This document shows, one piece after another, positions 1-32,803 of a DNA stretch of 32,803 bases. The stretch is from positions 1 to 32,803 of IMG/VR virus record IMGVR_UViG_3300033148_003939; one strand, written 5' to 3'. The notes under the pieces are model-generated. The model had not been told where the DNA came from. It did not search any database and saw only the letters and a list, made by a program, of their open reading frames with translations. How positions within the stretch are numbered: position 1 is the stretch's first letter; each line of letters begins with the position of its first letter. A program made the position numbers and the translations under genes. Source of the stretch: a virus.

Positions 1-168
1 GGCGACTGCACCTACCTGCGGGGAGACTGTTCCGGTTTGCATGGCGACTGCACCTACCTGCGGGGAGACTGTTCCGGTTTGCATGGCGACTGCACCTACC
101 TGCGGGGAGACTGCTCTGGCTTGCAGGGCGACTGCTCCGGCTTGCGGGGCGATATATCTGAGCTTGAA
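1..168 (+). repeat. 21-bp coding tandem repeat array (heptapeptide), start-of-window part
   Basis: The 21-bp unit ggcgactgcacctacctgcg(g) alternates with a variant ending in ggtttgcat, giving a 42-bp higher-order repeat at the left end. The array continues from 32648-32803. Copy number across the join is uncertain because repeats of this length can collapse in assembly. Confidence 0.85.
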
Positions 169-369
169 GGCGAAATAATCGCTACGCTGTGGGTGTGGCG
201 TTATCCGATAGTAAAAATTGCGGGTAAAAAAGAAATCGTCGCCGTGGGATGTATGCGGTTTGAGAAAAAACCTACCTATGAAAAAGTCAAGGGGCATATA
301 TCAGAAGGTGAATATAATCAACTGATTAAACTTTGGAATCCGTTGAAGCAAATAAAAAGTTGCTCGTAA
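1..369 (+). CDS. Heptapeptide-repeat Cys-rich protein, 3' part (5' part lies at 32555-32803)
   Basis: The frame is open from base 1, so the gene is cut by the end of the window. Joining the end to the start, after removing the 114-base duplicate, gives a 167-residue protein. Bases 1-168 encode 7-residue units of the form G-D-C-[ST]-x-L-[RHQ], ending in a Cys-free unit GDISELE. A non-repetitive C-terminal domain of about 65 residues follows (EIIATLWVWRYPIV..., ending IKSCS). That domain is nearly the same as the end of the protein at 22746-23450, so the two are paralogues. One Leu and one Cys per turn suggest a stacked solenoid, but the fold and function are unknown to me. Confidence 0.75.
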   Translation, partial: GDCTYLRGDCSGLHGDCTYLRGDCSGLHGDCTYLRGDCSGLQGDCSGLRGDISELEGEIIATLWVWRYPIVKIAGKKEIVAVGCMRFEKKPTYEKVKGHISEGEYNQLIKLWNPLKQIKSCS

Positions 370-22592: not shown

Positions 22593-22620
22593 AAACGCCC
22601 TCCGATGGGGCGTTTTTTTT
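22593..22620 (+). terminator. Rho-independent terminator closing the structural/lysis operon
   Basis: An 8-bp stem aaacgccc (22593-22600) / gggcgttt (22608-22615) is followed by an unbroken T run reaching 22621. It separates the late operon from the accessory region. Confidence 0.85.
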
Positions 22621-22683
22621 TCGGAAATTTGAAAAAAATTTGTAAGTCGTTGATATTAAAGAGAAAAAAAATTGAAAAAAGAC

Positions 22684-22712
22684 TTGACAAGCCCGAAAAA
22701 AGATGTTATATT
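22684..22712 (+). promoter_or_regulatory. Sigma70-type promoter, copy A, for heptapeptide-repeat gene
   Basis: -35 TTGACA (22684-22689), 17-base spacer, -10 TATATT (22707-22712). The same 29 bases recur exactly 800 bases downstream (23484-23512). Confidence 0.8.
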
Positions 22713-22745
22713 GATACTAAAACTAAAGAAGAGGGAGGCGTAACG

Positions 22746-23450
22746 ATGAAAACCGGCAAATTATATGGAAACACCAAAAATCTTACTGGAGATTACTCGG
22801 GGTTATATGGCGACTGCTCCTACCTGCGGGGAGACTGCACCGACCTGCGGGGCGACTGCTCCAACCTGCGGGGCGACTGCACCTACCTGCGGGGCGACTG
22901 CTCCGGTTTGCAGGGCGACTGCACAGACCTGTGGGGAGACTGCTCCGACCTGCGTGGAGCCTGCACCAACCTGCGGGGCAGCTGCACCGGCCTACGGGGC
23001 AACTGCTCCTACCTGCGGGGAGACTGCACCGACCTGCGGGGCAGCTGCACCAACCTGCGGGGAGACTGCTCCAAACTGTGGGGGGACTGCTCCGACCTGC
23101 GTGGAGATTGCTCCAAACTGTGGGGGGACTGCACCGACCTGCGGGGAGACTGCACCAACCTGCGGGGAGACTGCTCCAAACTGTGGGGGGACTGCTCCGA
23201 CCTGCGTGGAGACTGCTCCGGCTTGCGGGGCGATATATCTGAGCTTGAAGGCGAAATAATCGCTACGCTGTGGGTCTGGCGTTATCCTATAGTAAAAATT
23301 GTGGGTAAAAAAGAAATCATCGCTGTGGGCTGTATGCGGTTCGAGAAAAAGCCGACATACGAAGAAGTCGAGGAGTATCTGTCGGAAGATGAATACAACC
23401 AATTAATTGAACTCTGGGCCCCGTTGAAGCGGATAAAAATTTGCTCGTAA
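22746..23450 (+). CDS. Heptapeptide-repeat Cys-rich solenoid protein (234 aa)
   Basis: I chose the ATG at 22746, seven bases after gggaggcg (an upstream frame extension would cross the promoter). Residues ~8-168 comprise 23 consecutive 7-residue units G-[DSAN]-C-[ST]-x-L-[RWQ], of which 20 carry Cys at the third position and all have Leu at the sixth. A non-repetitive domain of about 65 residues follows (EIIATLWVWRYPIV..., RFEKKPTYEEVEEYL, LWAPLKRIKICS), shared with the gene at the window ends. Strict Leu/Cys periodicity suggests a stacked beta-solenoid with a cysteine ladder. Function unknown. Similar heptapeptide-repeat ORFs exist in other phages as far as I recall, without assigned function. 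Confidence 0.85.
   Translation: MKTGKLYGNTKNLTGDYSGLYGDCSYLRGDCTDLRGDCSNLRGDCTYLRGDCSGLQGDCTDLWGDCSDLRGACTNLRGSCTGLRGNCSYLRGDCTDLRGSCTNLRGDCSKLWGDCSDLRGDCSKLWGDCTDLRGDCTNLRGDCSKLWGDCSDLRGDCSGLRGDISELEGEIIATLWVWRYPIVKIVGKKEIIAVGCMRFEKKPTYEEVEEYLSEDEYNQLIELWAPLKRIKICS
22767..23249 (+). repeat. 21-bp coding tandem repeat, 23 units
   Basis: Exactly 483 bases = 23 x 21. Sub-blocks such as the units reading KLW-GDC-SDLR recur as 42-bp higher-order repeats. The array is open in more than one frame on both strands because of its composition. Confidence 0.9.
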
Positions 23451-23483
23451 CCCCCCCCCAGAGAAAAAAAATTGAAAAAAGGC

Positions 23484-23512
23484 TTGACAAGCCCGAAAAA
23501 AGATGTTATATT
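23484..23512 (+). promoter_or_regulatory. Sigma70-type promoter, copy B
   Basis: TTGACA (23484-23489), 17-base spacer, TATATT (23507-23512), with flanks agreeing over about 60 bases with the copy at 22684. It drives the gene at 23547. Confidence 0.8.
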
Positions 23513-23546
23513 AGTATCAAAGCTAAGGGAGAGGGAGGCAGAGAAA

Positions 23547-23894
23547 ATGATAATCCGCGAAGGAAAAATCAGAAGAAAAACCGAAAAGGCCGTTCTCTTT
23601 TTCGATGACCTCACCGCCGCGGAAATCTGGATTCCTCGGAGCCAGATGGCGGAACTCGACTACTACGAGGTTATCGGCAAGCCCACCAGAATCCATTTGA
23701 CACCCTGGATCGCCGAGCAGAAGGGCCTCGTCACCGCTGAAGAGCGCGCCCGGGAAGAAGAAGAGGAAAGGAAGGAAGAATACATCCGCCGGAACCTCGA
23801 CAAGGTTACCTACGAGGAAGCCGACGCCGCCGGCTACGGGAAGGAGTGGATAAAGCGGAGCAAGAAGAAGGGCGGCATCAACTATAAAAAATAA
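23547..23894 (+). CDS. Small charged phage protein (115 aa)
   Basis: The ATG at 23547 is preceded by gagggaggcag; the longer upstream frame would include the promoter. Residues ~1-55 form a small beta unit (GKIRRKTEKAVLFFDDLTAAEIWIPRSQMAE, read in parts) of a type often seen in phage early genes. The second half is a highly charged helix (EERAREEEEERKEEYIRRNL). Family function unknown to me. It heads the early operon that follows promoter copy B. Confidence 0.65.
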   Translation: MIIREGKIRRKTEKAVLFFDDLTAAEIWIPRSQMAELDYYEVIGKPTRIHLTPWIAEQKGLVTAEERAREEEEERKEEYIRRNLDKVTYEEADAAGYGKEWIKRSKKKGGINYKK

Positions 23895-23910: not shown

Positions 23911-24201
23911 ATGACACGGCAAGAATGGGAAAAAGCCTTCAGAAAGGCGCGACGGGAATTAGGGCTTCCCCGGTTCGAGAGGGAATGTCGGTTAGTTCCG
24001 TTTGCTTCTTGCAGGATGGTGAAAGCTTACAAGGTGCCGGGGACGCAAGAACACGGAACGTACTGTATGTTAACCGCTCAGGCGCGAAGATTGGCTGAAG
24101 CTGAAACGGGGTTAAGATGGCCTTTTTTTGAGGAAAATATGACAAAAGGAGGCAAAGAAAATTCTGTTGTTATCAACCGGCGCGAAGGAGAAAAACGATG
24201 A
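23911..24201 (+). CDS. Small basic phage protein (96 aa)
   Basis: The site aagaagggaga precedes ATG 23911. It is basic and helical at the N-terminus (WEKAFRKARRELGLPRFERE), with three cysteines (residues ~28, 36, 52). The gene overlaps the next start by four bases (ATGA arrangement). Not recognised. Confidence 0.6.
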   Translation: MTRQEWEKAFRKARRELGLPRFERECRLVPFASCRMVKAYKVPGTQEHGTYCMLTAQARRLAEAETGLRWPFFEENMTKGGKENSVVINRREGEKR

Positions 24202-24647
24202 TGCCTGAACAAGAAATCAACAAGGAAGAACCCGAACGCCTGCCTTGCGGAACGTGTGACTATTATAATCACACAGGCTTATACCTAGCAAAAAGCACGT
24301 TCTACGAATACGAAACGGAACTTTGTATTCACCCCAAAAACATGAAGTACTCCGGCCGGGCAGCGGTGCCGCAACCAACATATCTTTTTAATGAAGACGG
24401 CCTCTGCGAAGGACATTCCAAGCGTCGAATGAAGAGGGCGAAGAATTTTAAAGCGACCAAAAGCTTCGGGCGTGTGTGCGACTTCGAAGGGGACAAAGAT
24501 TTTGGGCACGGAATCGACTTCGAGGGGGATAAAGACTTCGGGCGTGCATATAACTCTGGAGAGGTGTGCAGCTTCGGGGAGGGATGTGATTTCGGCGAAG
24601 ACTGTGAGAAAGAGAAGGGAGGCAAGGAAAATGAAGATAATGAGTAG
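24198..24647 (+). CDS. Cys-containing protein with hexapeptide-repeat C-terminus (149 aa)
   Basis: The ATG at 24198 is seven bases after aaggag. The N-terminal half has CGTCDYYNHTG and ELCIHPKN, a Cys/His arrangement that could bind zinc. From residue ~89 the sequence becomes eight 6-residue units of the form [SDN]-F-G-x-x-[CKY] (SFGRVC, DFEGDK, DFGHGI, DFGRAY, SFGEGC, DFGEDC), ending in a Lys/Glu tail. Hexapeptide units with an aromatic at position 1 and Gly at position 2 recall left-handed beta-helices. The same repeat is fully developed in the next gene. Confidence 0.7.
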   Translation: MMPEQEINKEEPERLPCGTCDYYNHTGLYLAKSTFYEYETELCIHPKNMKYSGRAAVPQPTYLFNEDGLCEGHSKRRMKRAKNFKATKSFGRVCDFEGDKDFGHGIDFEGDKDFGRAYNSGEVCSFGEGCDFGEDCEKEKGGKENEDNE

Positions 24648-25305
24648 AGAAGAATTTGAGGATTTCGACAGAGATGATAACGGCATCCTGTGCCTTCCTG
24701 GGAACACGGATTATTCGGCTATTAAAGATTTCCCGGACAGTTGCAGGTTCGGGGAAGGGTGTAACTTTGGAAAAGGCAGCAGATTCGGAACGCGGTGCAG
24801 GTTCGGGGATGACGTCAGCTTCGGAGAGTGGTGTGGATTCGGAGAACGGTGCCGGTTCGGGGAAGGATGCCGATTCGGGGAAGGATGCCGATTCGAGGAA
24901 CGCTGCAACTTCGATAGGTGGTGCAGCTTCGGGAGGCTATGTAGCTTCGGGCGTGTGTGCAGCTTTGGAGGAGGGTGCGAGTTTGGGGAGGGATGCAGCT
25001 TTGGAGAACGCTGCAGGTTTGGGGCGGTGTGCATCTTTGGAGACGCCTGCGACTTCGGCGATGGATGCGAAGCTACAGAACCTTATTGGAGCTTTGTGTA
25101 TCCCCCGCCGTTTAAGGCGAATGGCCGCATTCTACCACCGGCGACGTGTCGCCCCTTCTGGCGGGAAAAGCTGGCACCGTGGGGAATCTCGTTGGAAGGC
25201 TGCTACGAAGAAATCTCTGAAGAGCTTGCTCCCAAACTCGATGCGATTCTCCGGGAAGGGAATTGGACAACCTGCGAGAGGATGATTCTGGAATCGTGGA
25301 GGTAA
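24631..25305 (+). CDS. Hexapeptide-repeat Cys-rich beta-helix-like protein (224 aa)
   Basis: The ATG at 24631 follows gggaggcaagg and overlaps the previous gene by 17 bases. Residues ~38-145 hold 18 units of six residues with consensus x-F-G-x-x-C (RFGEGC, SFGEWC, RFGERC, SFGRLC, DFGDAC and others). A Phe/Gly pair and a small residue every sixth place match the [LIV]-G-x-x-[STAV]-x rule of left-handed beta-helices such as LpxA, here with Phe and Cys substituting. A C-terminal globular domain of about 75 residues follows (PYWSFVYPPPFKANGRI...). No acyltransferase catalytic motif is evident. Function unknown. Confidence 0.78.
   Translation: MKIMSREEFEDFDRDDNGILCLPGNTDYSAIKDFPDSCRFGEGCNFGKGSRFGTRCRFGDDVSFGEWCGFGERCRFGEGCRFGEGCRFEERCNFDRWCSFGRLCSFGRVCSFGGGCEFGEGCSFGERCRFGAVCIFGDACDFGDGCEATEPYWSFVYPPPFKANGRILPPATCRPFWREKLAPWGISLEGCYEEISEELAPKLDAILREGNWTTCERMILESWR
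24747..25068 (+). repeat. 18-bp coding tandem repeat (hexapeptide), about 18 units
   Basis: Imperfect 18-bp units centred on ttcggggaaggatgc-like sequence. Several units are exact duplicates (for example the two consecutive cgattcggggaaggatgc copies near 24870-24890). Confidence 0.8.
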
Positions 25306-26264: not shown

Positions 26265-26648
26265 GTGAAGTGGTTACTGGCAGCCTCGGTTTTTATCGTG
26301 CTGACCGCCACGTCAGCGGTCGGAGGTGGGCGGTTATACCTGGGCTACACGCCAAACGCCCCCGCCAACTTCTATGCCGGCATCACCGCTGAAAGACGGC
26401 TGAATGAATTTCTCGGCTTTCGCCAGCCCGACATTTACCTGGTGGCGGATGTGAAAACTTTTCAAAATAAACTGGAAGAAGACGTTTACCGGTTTCAGCC
26501 GTCCTCGGTGGTGTACAGCTTCGGCGGTAGCGTTCGGTGGCGCGGGTTGTCGCTGACCGCCAGCCACAGGTGTTATCACGATATCAATAAAATCGGCACC
26601 GTCCGGGAGATTAACTACGTTGAAATATCCCTCGAATTTGGCATTTGA
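26265..26648 (+). CDS. Secreted small beta-barrel-like protein (127 aa)
   Basis: The GTG start directly follows the nuclease stop, with gggaaggt upstream. Residues 1-20 are a signal peptide (MKWLLAASVFIVLTATSAVG). The mature part shows alternating strands: RLYLGYTPNAPANFYAGITAE, DIYLVADVKTFQN, VVYSFGGSVRWRGLSLTASH, and a last strand INYVEISLEFGI. A single conserved-looking HRCYHDI segment recalls a set of phage-encoded small outer-membrane-barrel proteins I have seen. It may alter the host envelope, for example by receptor masking. This suggests a Gram-negative host but is inference. Confidence 0.6.
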   Translation: MKWLLAASVFIVLTATSAVGGGRLYLGYTPNAPANFYAGITAERRLNEFLGFRQPDIYLVADVKTFQNKLEEDVYRFQPSSVVYSFGGSVRWRGLSLTASHRCYHDINKIGTVREINYVEISLEFGI

Positions 26649-26673
26649 CAAACCTAAAGAGGTGTGCTAATAC
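26645..26673 (+). promoter_or_regulatory. Sigma70-type promoter for methyltransferase
   Basis: -35 TTGACA (26645-26650), 17-base spacer, -10 TAATAC (26668-26673). The -35 overlaps the stop of the upstream gene. Confidence 0.75.
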
Positions 26674-26698
26674 TGATGCTAAGAAGGGGGGCGTCACG

Positions 26699-27730
26699 TT
26701 GGATTACCTTTCACTATTTTCAGGAGCGGGACTCGGAGACCTCGGCCTGCAACACCTGGTCGGCCTGACCTGTAGGGGGTACGTGGAATATGACAAATAC
26801 TGTCAACAAGTCCTCAGGCAACGTATCGAAGACGGGTTCCTCGATGAGGCGCCGATATTCGGCGATGTGCGAAACTTCACCGGTGAGGGGTACGCCTTAT
26901 CGTATCAGGGGGTGGTTGAAGCAGTCACGGCGGGATTCCCGTGCCAGCCGTTCAGCGTCGCCGGAAAGCGGCTCGGAGAGAATGACTCCCGAAATCTATG
27001 GCCCGAGACTTTGCGAGTTATCCGAATCGTCCAACCGACAACCGTTTTTCTGGAGAACGTGCCAGGGCTGCTTGCCGCTCGACGTGAAAAATTATTCCGG
27101 TTTGTACAGACTGGAACCGGTAAACAAATTTCTGTCGAAGTTCATTCCTGCAAAATCAGACGAACTCCCTATGCCCTCCGAGTATACGGAGACCTTGCCC
27201 AAAGCGGGTATAGTGCTCGATGGCGTTGCGTATCGGCAGCCGAAGTGGGAGCGCCGCACAGGAGAGACAGGCTCTGGATTAGGGCCGACCGTAACGGTGA
27301 ACGGGAATTACAATCGAAAAGGGGCCAGCAAAACGAGCGGGGATGGACTGAATACAGTGGTGGCAAACGCGGGGCGCAAATGGCCCACACCGACGAGCAG
27401 GGATTACAAGGATACCGGAGACTTGAGCAAAGTCCCGGAAAACAGTTTGTTGCCGAGAAAGGTTTGGAATTATCAAAAGGATGGTGGGATGCCGACCCGG
27501 CGGATGTGGTTAACTCCGAAGTGTCCGAGCGGGGGAGGACAGGCGGTGAGGAAGACGACCGGTGGGGGATTACGAAAGCTGGAAGATCAAGCGGCTCCGG
27601 GGGGGCAACTCAACCCCTACTGGGTAGAGTGGCTCATGGGGTGCCCCATCGGGTGGACAGGCTTAGAGCCCTTGGGAACGCACAGGTTCCGCTCGTGGCT
27701 GCGGTCGCATGGATGCTGTTAACTGATTGA
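26699..27730 (+). CDS. dcm: C5-cytosine DNA methyltransferase (343 aa)
   Basis: I use TTG 26699 (aagaagggggg upstream); an earlier in-frame TTG is the -35 box itself. Motif I is FSGAGLGDLG (residues 6-15); motif IV is FPCQPFSVAGKR with catalytic Cys82; motif VI is FLENVPG (Glu119, Asn120, Val121). Motif VIII is RRDRLWIRA, and the end RVDRLRALGNAQVP (Gly326-Asn327) is motif X. The enzyme transfers a methyl group from SAM to cytosine C5, probably to protect phage DNA from restriction. The target-recognition half (after motif VIII) overlaps a second, conserved-looking frame. Confidence 0.92.
   Translation: MDYLSLFSGAGLGDLGLQHLVGLTCRGYVEYDKYCQQVLRQRIEDGFLDEAPIFGDVRNFTGEGYALSYQGVVEAVTAGFPCQPFSVAGKRLGENDSRNLWPETLRVIRIVQPTTVFLENVPGLLAARREKLFRFVQTGTGKQISVEVHSCKIRRTPYALRVYGDLAQSGYSARWRCVSAAEVGAPHRRDRLWIRADRNGERELQSKRGQQNERGWTEYSGGKRGAQMAHTDEQGLQGYRRLEQSPGKQFVAEKGLELSKGWWDADPADVVNSEVSERGRTGGEEDDRWGITKAGRSSGSGGATQPLLGRVAHGVPHRVDRLRALGNAQVPLVAAVAWMLLTD
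26982..27722 (+). CDS. Protein encoded in an alternative (+1) frame inside the methyltransferase gene
   Basis: This frame is open from 26790 to 27722 (310 codons). I place a likely start at ATG 26982 (cggagaga just upstream), though 26790 and 27171 are also possible. From about 27171 the sequence looks like a known standalone phage protein family: TLPKAGIVLDGVAYRQPKWE, RRTGETGSGLGPTV, NGNYNRKGASKTSGDGLNT, KWPTPTSRDYKDTG, GGQLNPYWVEWLMGCPIGWT, then PLGTHRFRSWLRSHG. I recall this WPTP...LNPxWVEWLMGxPxGWT pattern from phage and prophage proteins of unknown function. Both frames carrying family-like sequence suggests true overlapping genes. How it is translated is not clear. Confidence 0.6.
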   Translation: MTPEIYGPRLCELSESSNRQPFFWRTCQGCLPLDVKNYSGLYRLEPVNKFLSKFIPAKSDELPMPSEYTETLPKAGIVLDGVAYRQPKWERRTGETGSGLGPTVTVNGNYNRKGASKTSGDGLNTVVANAGRKWPTPTSRDYKDTGDLSKVPENSLLPRKVWNYQKDGGMPTRRMWLTPKCPSGGGQAVRKTTGGGLRKLEDQAAPGGQLNPYWVEWLMGCPIGWTGLEPLGTHRFRSWLRSHGCC

Positions 27731-27758: not shown

Positions 27759-28817
27759 ATGACGAAACGTAATGACGACAGGCCAAGGCCGAAGACCTCC
27801 GCCGGCAACGGCGGGAGCCCAGTAACGAAAGACCAGGAAAACGGCAAGGATGTAGTCTTCACCCGCATGGACGACTACGACATCGAGCAGATAGTCCGCG
27901 CACAGGAGGGTTTGGACGCGGAGGCGATGGTTTACAACCTTCCCTTCCGCTCCAAGAACGGCGTCCTCGACTGTGGTTACTCGTGGTGCGACTACCGCGG
28001 GAAACACCCGCACGAGCACGCGGTCAGGATAGGAATCGCGGGCGTGGACGAAATCATCCGGCAGATGGGTGGCATCGAAGTCGGCCCGGTGGGCGATGTG
28101 AAAATGAAGGTCATCGACGGCCGGAAGTTCTTGGAAGCCACCGCCTACGCTTATGACAAATTTACCGGCGTCAAGCGCACCGCTACGGTCTATTACGACT
28201 TCGTAAAACGCGGCAACACCAGTCGCCCCCAGGACTGGCCCGTCATCGCCAAGCGGCTCGCCGAACGAAACGCCGCCACGACGCTGTTGCCGATGATAAC
28301 CAAGCAGAAAATCGCCGAACTTGGAAGGCAGGCTAAGCGCGTTCTGAGCGCGGAAGACATCGCGGCGATTCTGAGGCCCATCTACCAGGAGCGCGAGCCG
28401 AAAAAGATATTCTGGCTCCGCGCACAGGTCGAAGCACAGCGGGTCCTCTCCGGTTCGCAGCAGGCCCTTGATGATATACCCGCTCTTCCCATCCCGGCCG
28501 ACGCGGCGCCGCTTGACAACCCCGAAAATACGTGTAATAATAATGGTGATTCTGATACGGAAATCCGGGGAGGCGGAGCCGGGATGACGCAATCACAAAG
28601 GCGATATTTGTATAAACTGCTATCGGAATTCGGCGCGGACAAGGAAGACGTTTCCGAATTCCTGAAAGAGGCGGTGACCTCGAAACAGGACGCCTCCGCC
28701 GCCATCGAGAACTTTCTCCAGAAAGATTTTTCATCTTTCGAGAACTGGCTTGCCTTGAAAAAAAACGAGGAGGGAGATGAGAGCGATGAAAACGCCCAGG
28801 AAGACATACCCTTTTGA
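27759..28817 (+). CDS. Putative single-strand annealing / ssDNA-binding protein with SSB-like C-terminal tail (352 aa)
   Basis: The core (about residues 60-215) reads like a RecT/Rad52-type annealing protein: MVYNLPFRSKNG, a strand pair KFLEATAYAYDKFTGVKR, then IAKRLAERNAATTLLPMITK, where RNA...LLP echoes the RN-x-x-x-x-L-I-P motif of phage annealases. A disordered acidic linker and a small helical domain (TQSQRRYLYKLLSEFG..., 276-340) follow. The last residues EDIPF equal the SSB C-terminal interaction peptide. Together with the RecB-like nuclease it could form a recombination pair. Fold assignment is tentative. Start follows aaaaaggaggcaag. Confidence 0.65.
   Translation: MTKRNDDRPRPKTSAGNGGSPVTKDQENGKDVVFTRMDDYDIEQIVRAQEGLDAEAMVYNLPFRSKNGVLDCGYSWCDYRGKHPHEHAVRIGIAGVDEIIRQMGGIEVGPVGDVKMKVIDGRKFLEATAYAYDKFTGVKRTATVYYDFVKRGNTSRPQDWPVIAKRLAERNAATTLLPMITKQKIAELGRQAKRVLSAEDIAAILRPIYQEREPKKIFWLRAQVEAQRVLSGSQQALDDIPALPIPADAAPLDNPENTCNNNGDSDTEIRGGGAGMTQSQRRYLYKLLSEFGADKEDVSEFLKEAVTSKQDASAAIENFLQKDFSSFENWLALKKNEEGDESDENAQEDIPF
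28513..28541 (+). promoter_or_regulatory. Internal promoter-like sequence within the annealing-protein gene
   Basis: TTGACA (28513-28518), 17-base spacer, AATAAT (28536-28541). It lies in the disordered linker coding region, 43 bases before an in-frame ATG (28584) with ggggagg upstream. Confidence 0.5.
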
Positions 28818-31575: not shown

Positions 31576-32296
31576 ACTGAAAATCTGTATTTGCACGCCG
31601 GCGACGTGGCCGTTCGTCTGGCTCGGGCATCACTCGACGGTCGTAAATATGATACTGTCGGCGCCGAAAAACGTGGAGTTGACTACACTCTACGGAAAGC
31701 TTTTCCCGATAGACGCCAACCGTAACGCGCTGGTGAAGGCGGCCCTGGAGACGGACGCGGAATACCTGCTGTGGCTCGATATGGATAACGTTTTCCCGGC
31801 CAACACCATCGAGAAACTTTTTAAGGTAAACGCGGACATCGCCTCGGGCGTGTATTTCAAAAAGAAGGAACCCTACCCGGCGGTGCCCGGCAGGGCGCTT
31901 GACGAGCATTATTACCGCCCGCTCGATATAGTGGCTTGCGGAGGCCGGGTCGTGAACGCCGACCTGATAGGGATGGGGTGCGCGTTGATAAGACGTAGCG
32001 TTTTTGAAAACCTGCCACACCCGTGGTTTCGCTACGCCTATAATATCGAAACAGACGAGTGGAGCGTATCGGAAGACGTAGCGTTCTGCAAGGCCGCGCG
32101 CCGCAAGGGATACGAGATAAAGGTGGACACGAGCCTGATTTGCGGGCACGTCCGCCCGGAAGCCATTGGATACGAGCATCACCTCTACGGGCGGGAAGTG
32201 CTGAAACTCGAAGCCGCGCGCGATAAACAAGTCGCCGCGTATGTGTGGAGACCTGACTATGATGGAGCGTATCTTGCTGACGCAGCGGAAAAATAA
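31562..32296 (+). CDS. Glycosyltransferase, GT-A fold (244 aa)
   Basis: The N-terminus (KICICTPATWPFVWLGHHST, residues 6-25) and the motif EYLLWLDMDNVFPANTIEKL with the metal-binding D-x-D near residue 72 are typical of GT2-like GT-A enzymes. Later segments are IASGVYFKKKEPYP, IGMGCALIRRSVFENLPHPW (split), and SEDVAFCKAARRKGYEI, the acceptor/catalytic region. It would transfer a sugar from a nucleotide sugar; the acceptor could be DNA, a virion protein or a surface glycan. The ATG at 31562 lies within the previous gene's end. Confidence 0.82.
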   Translation: MTADKLKICICTPATWPFVWLGHHSTVVNMILSAPKNVELTTLYGKLFPIDANRNALVKAALETDAEYLLWLDMDNVFPANTIEKLFKVNADIASGVYFKKKEPYPAVPGRALDEHYYRPLDIVACGGRVVNADLIGMGCALIRRSVFENLPHPWFRYAYNIETDEWSVSEDVAFCKAARRKGYEIKVDTSLICGHVRPEAIGYEHHLYGREVLKLEAARDKQVAAYVWRPDYDGAYLADAAEK

Positions 32297-32558
32297 TTTT
32301 GACAAACACCGCGAGTTGCTGACGAAAATTGCCGCGAAGCGAGACCACGATATGAACTTCGTGCACCCTTGCGGCAAGAGCGGCCGGGAGGTGGAAGAGG
32401 CGGACCCGTGTCCCTGCCTGAAGTGCGAAATCTACGAAGAGTGCCTATCGTATTTTTCGCGGGTCTGCGACACGAGCGCGAAAGTCGGCAAGCCGCCGTT
32501 TTCCCTGGAGATGGAGCGGCGGGTTCTGAAAGACCAGAAAAGGAGGTGTGACGGATGA
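32259..32558 (+). CDS. Small Cys-rich protein (99 aa)
   Basis: Two ATGs lie together (32259, 32262) after gtggagacc, overlapping the glycosyltransferase end. The chain starts with a basic helix (LLTQRKNNFDKHRELLTKIA) and has cysteines at CPCLKCEIYEEC (about residues 50-61), a possible metal site. Its stop overlaps the next start (ATGA). Not recognised. Confidence 0.6.
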   Translation: MMERILLTQRKNNFDKHRELLTKIAAKRDHDMNFVHPCGKSGREVEEADPCPCLKCEIYEECLSYFSRVCDTSAKVGKPPFSLEMERRVLKDQKRRCDG

Positions 32559-32803
32559 AAAAAACCGGCAAATTAACGGAAACACCGAAACCGCCAAATT
32601 ATTGGGAGATTATTCGGGGCTATGTGGCGACTGCACCAGCCTGCGGGGGCGACTGCTCTAATCTGCGGGGAGACTGCTCCGGCCTGCGGGGCGACTGCAC
32701 CTACCTGCGGGGAGACTGTTCCGGTTTGCATGGCGACTGCACCTACCTGCGGGGAGACTGTTCCGGTTTGCATGGCGACTGCACCTACCTGCGGGGAGAC
32801 TGC
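32555..32803 (+). CDS. Heptapeptide-repeat Cys-rich protein, 5' part (continues at 1-369)
   Basis: The ATG at 32555 overlaps the previous stop and follows aaaggaggtg. Residues 1-7 (MKKTGKL) match the paralogue's start. Residues 8-31 read TETPKPPNYWEIIRGYVATA and onward, which in the paralogue is the product of another frame: two small indels (near 32576 and in the G run 32645-32649) shift the frame out and back. From residue 32 the 7-residue repeats resume (GDCSNLR, GDCSGLR, GDCTYLR, ...). The whole protein is 167 residues, with nine Cys-bearing units. Confidence 0.75.
   Translation, partial: MKKTGKLTETPKPPNYWEIIRGYVATAPACGGDCSNLRGDCSGLRGDCTYLRGDCSGLHGDCTYLRGDCSGLHGDCTYLRGDC
32648..32803 (+). 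repeat. 21-bp coding tandem repeat array (heptapeptide), end-of-window part
   Basis: In-frame 21-bp repeats run to the window end and continue at base 1. The last 114 bases are an exact copy of bases 1-114. Confidence 0.85.

Follow-up and report, generated by a model that had tools for sequence, protein, structure and literature searches.

The window analysed here, a 32,803-nucleotide stretch of viral DNA (IMG/VR record IMGVR_UViG_3300033148_003939), carries a gene in which a sequence-only reading had counted 23 consecutive 7-residue units with an invariant Leu and a near-invariant Cys. The locus raises the question of what kind of protein such an array builds and what the protein could do for the phage. 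The gene, denoted as gene A, and the signals in front of it are as follows.

22593..22615, + strand: intrinsic-terminator-like hairpin with a T-run, between the upstream lysis genes and gene A
22684..22712, + strand: sigma-70-type promoter of gene A, TTGACA-17-TATATT, near-consensus
22746..23450, + strand: gene A, encoding a 234-residue heptapeptide-repeat protein; ATG at 22746, stop at 23448-23450, ribosome-binding site GGGAGG at 22733-22738
22782..23243, + strand: residues 13-166 of gene A, the heptapeptide array; L-x-G-[DNSA]-[CYI]-[ST]-x repeated in phase 22 times, predicted by AlphaFold2 as all-beta
23244..23447, + strand: C-terminal domain of gene A (LEGEIIATLWVWRYPIVKIVGKKEIIAVGC...), common only to gene B; a C-terminal helix is predicted

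Twenty-two units of the array are consecutive and in phase, and one degenerate unit flanks them at either end, which makes 23 a fair count. Leu, Gly and Ser/Thr hold their positions in 22 of 22 units, Cys in 20 and Asp in 18, so the invariant Leu and the near-invariant Cys were read correctly. In-phase LxGxC occurs in 20 units, whereas the maximum in 20,000 residue shuffles was 3. At position 2, Arg is present in 15 of the 22 units and offsets the Asp at position 4. The third codon positions of the array differ while the residues are kept, as seen for Gly, where GGA, GGC and GGG are used 10, 9 and 3 times, respectively. The block containing the promoter and leader (22659-22740) resembles a second copy at 23460-23539 (90% over 80 bp), which precedes the next gene (23535-23894), and a weaker echo of it lies at 28512.

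A second array gene had been placed across the two ends of the window, and its parts, denoted as gene B, are arranged as listed below.

32555..32689, + strand: 5' part of gene B, before the terminal repeat; the start codon (ATG) overlaps with the stop codon of gene 32241-32558
32690..32803, + strand: 114-bp terminal direct repeat, identical to 1-114; an assembly overlap within the gene B array that adds no extra sequence
1..369, + strand: 3' part of gene B, with the rest of the heptads and the C-terminal domain

Gene B is real, although the direct joining of the two ends counts 38 residues twice and breaks the heptad phase. When the 114-bp overlap was collapsed, the phase became continuous and the gene encoded 167 residues with about 10 units. 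Because the overlap sits in near-perfect 42-bp repeats, it is uncertain how many units gene B has and whether the contig is strictly circular; the molecule is probably closed or terminally redundant. Compared with gene A, gene B carries a one-base deletion and a later compensating one-base insertion (32555-32690 versus 22746-22850); as such, the first ~24 residues after its start (TETPKPPNYWEIIRGYVATAPACG) correspond to the +1 frame of gene A and are not heptads. Heptapeptide arrays also often form the starts or ends of viral contigs in relatives (L012, L014/L027, L024 and L129). Assemblies thus break at these repeats, and metagenomic records of the gene are probably too few and cut short.

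The arrays of genes A and B are followed by C-terminal domains, 67 residues long in A, which share 82% identity. Their dN of 0.090 against a dS of 0.612 (dN/dS 0.147) reflects purifying selection, and both genes therefore look selected as proteins. Searches of viral contigs (run without a positive control), of 16 relatives and of phage records gave no relative of the domain, and by these comparisons it is private to the window phage within the collections searched. As such, the conserved C-terminal domain, earlier given as 65 residues, does unite the two genes, but it has no relative elsewhere, and most relatives of the array carry other caps. Grouped on the array alone, genes A and B appear to be divergent family members with a swapped end.

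To define the family, we took at least five consecutive units of L-x-G-[DN]-[C/V/A]-[ST]-x, a definition that takes in gene A (22 units) and gene B (about 10 units). In viral contigs, Cys-type arrays were found at 49 loci by profile search and in 48 stretches by degenerate DNA patterns for Asp-Cys, and Val-type arrays in 45 stretches by degenerate DNA patterns. Once loci sharing sequence were removed, roughly 80 distinct viral contigs carried arrays. A slightly broader pattern for the Cys type gave 8 stretches in 84,980 prokaryote genomes, with clear arrays in 3. At one genomic locus (L156), the ORFs after the array resemble, by eye, Erf and YqaJ recombination proteins. The genomic array loci examined look like prophage, and the family appears, from its sequence distribution, to be nearly phage-only. 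In sequenced phage records, one genuine match was present in 50,697. Searches of Pfam, PHROGs, NCBIfam and PDB yielded no family match that survived inspection, and the open-access literature contained nothing relevant on phage heptapeptide solenoids. Taken together, the arrays constitute an undescribed, widespread family of phage repeat proteins, of which A and B are two paralogous members, and with the fold prediction given below the label of an uncharacterised solenoid class stands.

The usual member consists of an N-cap, n units of LxG[DN][C/V/A][ST]x and a C-cap. In most members the N-cap reads MKKxLTR..LYHFxDGxxxxGPNP, and the C-cap has two related forms, xIT..ER..G[VI]DI..L[IV] and IP...RP..L.DWV; all of these are common but not universal. 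Gene A lacks the LYHFxDGxxxxGPNP N-cap and starts with MKTGKLYGNTKN, and the N-cap is also missing in L011, L019 and L021. Genes A and B also lack the family C-cap, in whose place the private domain stands. In one set of arrays the Cys position is 94% Cys, whereas in the Val-type set, with caps identical in type, it is 79% Val, 8% Ala and 7% Cys. Since Val, Ala and Cys are exchanged under the same caps, this is a core position at which cysteine is not required as a ladder, and the cysteine ladder earlier proposed as the defining feature has to be given up. Within the units, position 3 is always Gly, the most frequent residue at position 7 is also Gly (57%), and position 4 is Asp or Asn.

To see how the array might fold, we ran AlphaFold2 with gene A and 22 family members as input. 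The array of gene A was modeled as short strands with zero helix at a pLDDT of about 71-80 over most of its length, followed by a poorly predicted junction and then a C-terminal helix; the confidence of the whole model was moderate (mean pLDDT 67.7, pTM 0.50). A canonical relative gave a similar helix-free picture of the array at low confidence (54.6). When the gene A model was searched against PDB with Foldseek, no match was obtained at E < 1e-3, and the lower-confidence model of the relative gave generic beta-helix and repeat matches only. In VIA-align, right-handed beta-helices aligned best to the gene A model, with TibA at Z 14.0 (rmsd 4.0 over 193 residues) and Ag43 at Z 14.0 (rmsd 4.1 over 216 residues), and a second family member aligned to TibA at Z 11.1 (rmsd 3.3 over 144 residues). 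From the aligned chain ranges, simple arithmetic gives about 13-15 model residues for each 19-20-residue coil of TibA or HetL, which equals two heptads. Residue identity between units at the variable positions is highest at a lag of two units (z 5.3 versus shuffles), compared with z 2.0 and 1.4 at lags of one and three, respectively; this signal could stem from duplications of two units (42 bp) instead. The array thus probably folds, according to the models, as a rod-like beta-solenoid with about 14 residues per coil; its handedness, tentatively right, and its coil size follow from models of moderate or low confidence. Structure prediction, which had been proposed as a check, accordingly points to a beta-solenoid and to neither disorder nor a coiled coil.

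Among known systems, the pentapeptide-repeat proteins (PF00805; HetL, AlbG, MfpA and Qnr) resemble the array as modeled, being right-handed beta-solenoids of short period in which the inward residues recur, and HetL aligns to a family-member model at Z 8.6 (rmsd 3.0 over 139 residues). In contrast with PF00805, which has a period of 5, the consensus A[DN]LXX and 20 residues per coil, the window array has a period of 7, another consensus, coils modeled at about 14 residues and a family with its own caps. The window protein has no PF00805 match in Pfam, and genuine pentapeptide arrays occur on some heptapeptide-array contigs. A similar logic of two inward residues is found in the left-handed beta-helix hexapeptide repeats of PF00132, although their unit has a period of 6 ([LIV]-G-x-x-[STAV]-x), whereas A and B have a period of 7 and no PF00132 match. 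The YadA head (Hep_Hag) and the grass ice-binding beta-roll (PF21300) have a 7-residue unit as well, and their two units per 14-residue coil would agree with the coil size taken from the models. Two relatives match PF21300 weakly, far under the cut-off (E 0.045 and 0.44); the family consensus and the spacing of inward residues differ from those of these two-sided rolls, and the model aligns to right-handed helices. The closest solved folds by VIA-align are the right-handed beta-helices of TibA, Ag43 and the P22 tailspike (Z 10-14). These have at least 19 residues per coil and are secreted or virion-borne enzymes or adhesins, and the likeness is one of fold type only.

Several sequence matches were rejected on inspection. 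Pfam formally assigned gene A to PF02349, the Pneumocystis major surface glycoprotein MSG (E 2e-13, 50.7 bits versus a cut-off of 22), so a match to a known family did exist on paper. The match is gone in the Val-type relatives L106 and L134, which have the same caps, and its best stretch covers about 34 of 76 profile positions of a fungal surface protein; it reflects the Leu/Cys spacing only and is a compositional coincidence. Plasmid matches (Aeromonas, Salmonella and Kovacikia) contained stops or unrelated repeats on translation, and the PDB sequence match 8qox (E 0.0015) was a helical-looking Leu heptad match.

The number of units is changeable between close relatives. In pairs of phages whose flanking DNA is 98-99.8% identical, the array proteins are 222 and 145 residues long (L015/L036), 184 and 149 (L028/L070), and 296 and 254 (L088/L071); all of these differences are multiples of 7 residues, and the caps are intact. 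Unit number would shift in frame via slippage or recombination between the 21/42-bp repeats. As unit number changes in frame, array length seems to be loosely constrained. Several phages carry two or three array genes in tandem (L026:5944-7294, L115:4138-4902 and L105), which have the same caps, different arrays and partly overlapping stop and start codons.

We then looked at the genomic setting, for which an accessory region had been proposed. Gene A is bordered by lysis genes on one side. The block on its other side contains genes with period-6 Phe-Gly/Cys repeats, together with genes for a PD-(D/E)XK exonuclease, a cytosine methyltransferase and a replication initiator. Gene B lies downstream of a glycosyltransferase-like gene and a gene of no known type, and upstream of a regulator. 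Both are outside the head and tail block of the window, in accessory or early regions as expected. The annotated neighbour families of arrays were 12 early or nucleic-acid versus 3 late, compared with 8 versus 10 in random phage contigs, a weak enrichment (Fisher two-sided P 0.07, one-sided 0.04). There is no fixed partner, as any single family adjoins an array in at most 2 of 95 cases. The YqaJ recombinase was considered as a linked partner, and the association was lost when 7 of 50 array contigs were compared with 4 of 29 random contigs. The neighbouring exonuclease had no relatives in viral contigs.

Other short-period solenoid arrays (penta, hexa and Cys-tri) occur on about eight array contigs including the window, whereas the controls had 0 versus 3.4 expected (P 0.03). 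In the window, two overlapping genes at 24198-24647 and 24631-25305 encode period-6 arrays (FGEGCRFGEGC...) that are left-handed beta-helix-like and match PF00132 below threshold. The second of them, an F-G-x-x-C-x array about 1.2 kb downstream of gene A, has its own C-terminal domain with no match in phage records. Period-3 Cys arrays (CQDCQGCQDC, CTNCTNCTDC) are present on heptapeptide-array contigs at L023:5117-5647 (the same contig as L067), L048:5612-5764 and L078:5343-5585. The gene at 26645-27730, which adjoins the exonuclease, encodes a C5 cytosine DNA methyltransferase (Pfam 1e-33) and is a possible anti-restriction gene.

Our preferred reading, to which we give a probability of roughly 0.45, is that the array protein is an accessory, length-tolerant beta-solenoid binding rod of an undescribed phage family, acting in counter-defence or host takeover. 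Each unit of L-x-G-[DN]-[C/V/A]-[ST]-x would contribute Leu and Cys/Val/Ala as its two inward residues and turn at Gly-Asp/Asn, and two units would make one coil of ~14 residues. Stacked coils would form a straight rod built by the invariant residues, while positions 2 and 7, which vary, would face outward as rows of exchangeable side chains. We infer production in the host cytoplasm, where the rigid surface of the protein may occupy a host or defence protein. The reasons are that array genes stand alone, lack a fixed partner and are often found among early DNA-metabolism genes, and that A and B are outside the structural operon, A with its own promoter and B in an early gene block. In the window phage, the private C-terminal domain stands in for the usual C-cap, and it may determine what is bound or close the end of the rod. 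The analysis identified neither a defence system nor a target or partner for the array proteins. A stronger version, in which the proteins are early, rapidly length-changing binders for counter-defence or takeover with two units per coil and exchangeable, target-setting C-domains, is doubtful.

Many phage beta-helices are structural, and the array could instead belong to a structural protein of variable length (a fibre or capsid decoration of the virion, or a tail accessory), given that tailspikes and tail fibres are among the best fold matches and that a PHROG match is annotated as 'minor head protein' (PHROG 19577, E 3e-9). However, the proteins behind this PHROG match come from Bacillus phages, have coiled-coil-like heptads rich in Lys and Glu and a different architecture, and were rejected as relatives, the tailspike likeness is generic to right-handed beta-helices, and the array genes lie outside the head/tail block in the window and mostly near early genes in relatives. 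We consider a structural role unlikely. A DNA-mimic solenoid resembling MfpA or Qnr, which would inhibit a DNA-binding enzyme such as gyrase or a restriction or recombination nuclease, seems equally improbable. The predicted rod shape, an Asp/Asn once per heptad and the frequent DNA-metabolism neighbours, with the exonuclease and methyltransferase near in the window, are consistent with mimicry. The net charge is nevertheless mild, at about -0.4 per heptad and -7 for protein A as a whole, with the Arg at position 2 offsetting Asp, and in several family arrays it is zero or slightly positive; such a mild charge disfavours strong DNA mimicry.

It is also conceivable, at a much lower probability, that the array is a selfish or non-functional expansion of a 21-bp repeat that stays open in several frames by chance. 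Several reading frames are open across the DNA array of gene A, unit number drifts between near-identical phages and gene B carries the compensating indels, whereas the residues and both caps are kept across very different DNA and phages, Val-type arrays included, and gene A has a good ribosome-binding site and promoter in addition to the low dN/dS of its C-domain. The least probable of the alternatives is an alpha-helical coiled coil or leucine zipper with true heptads. Although the period of 7, the invariant Leu and weak profile matches to LPP, TSC22 and MSG, which are helical heptad families, would suit such a protein, Gly at positions 3 and 7 and Asp/Asn at position 4 disfavour a helix, and AlphaFold2 placed no helix in either modeled array.

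Taken all together, the family is common in uncultured phages, missing from the family libraries searched and almost missing from sequenced phage records. Among the short-repeat solenoids, which have periods of 5 and 6, it would be a new member with a period of 7, and the simplicity of its consensus recommends it as a candidate scaffold in the design of repeat proteins. The in-frame length change among near-identical phages is a natural test of array length against function. If a role in counter-defence is true, the array proteins would represent a new structural class of counter-defence proteins.
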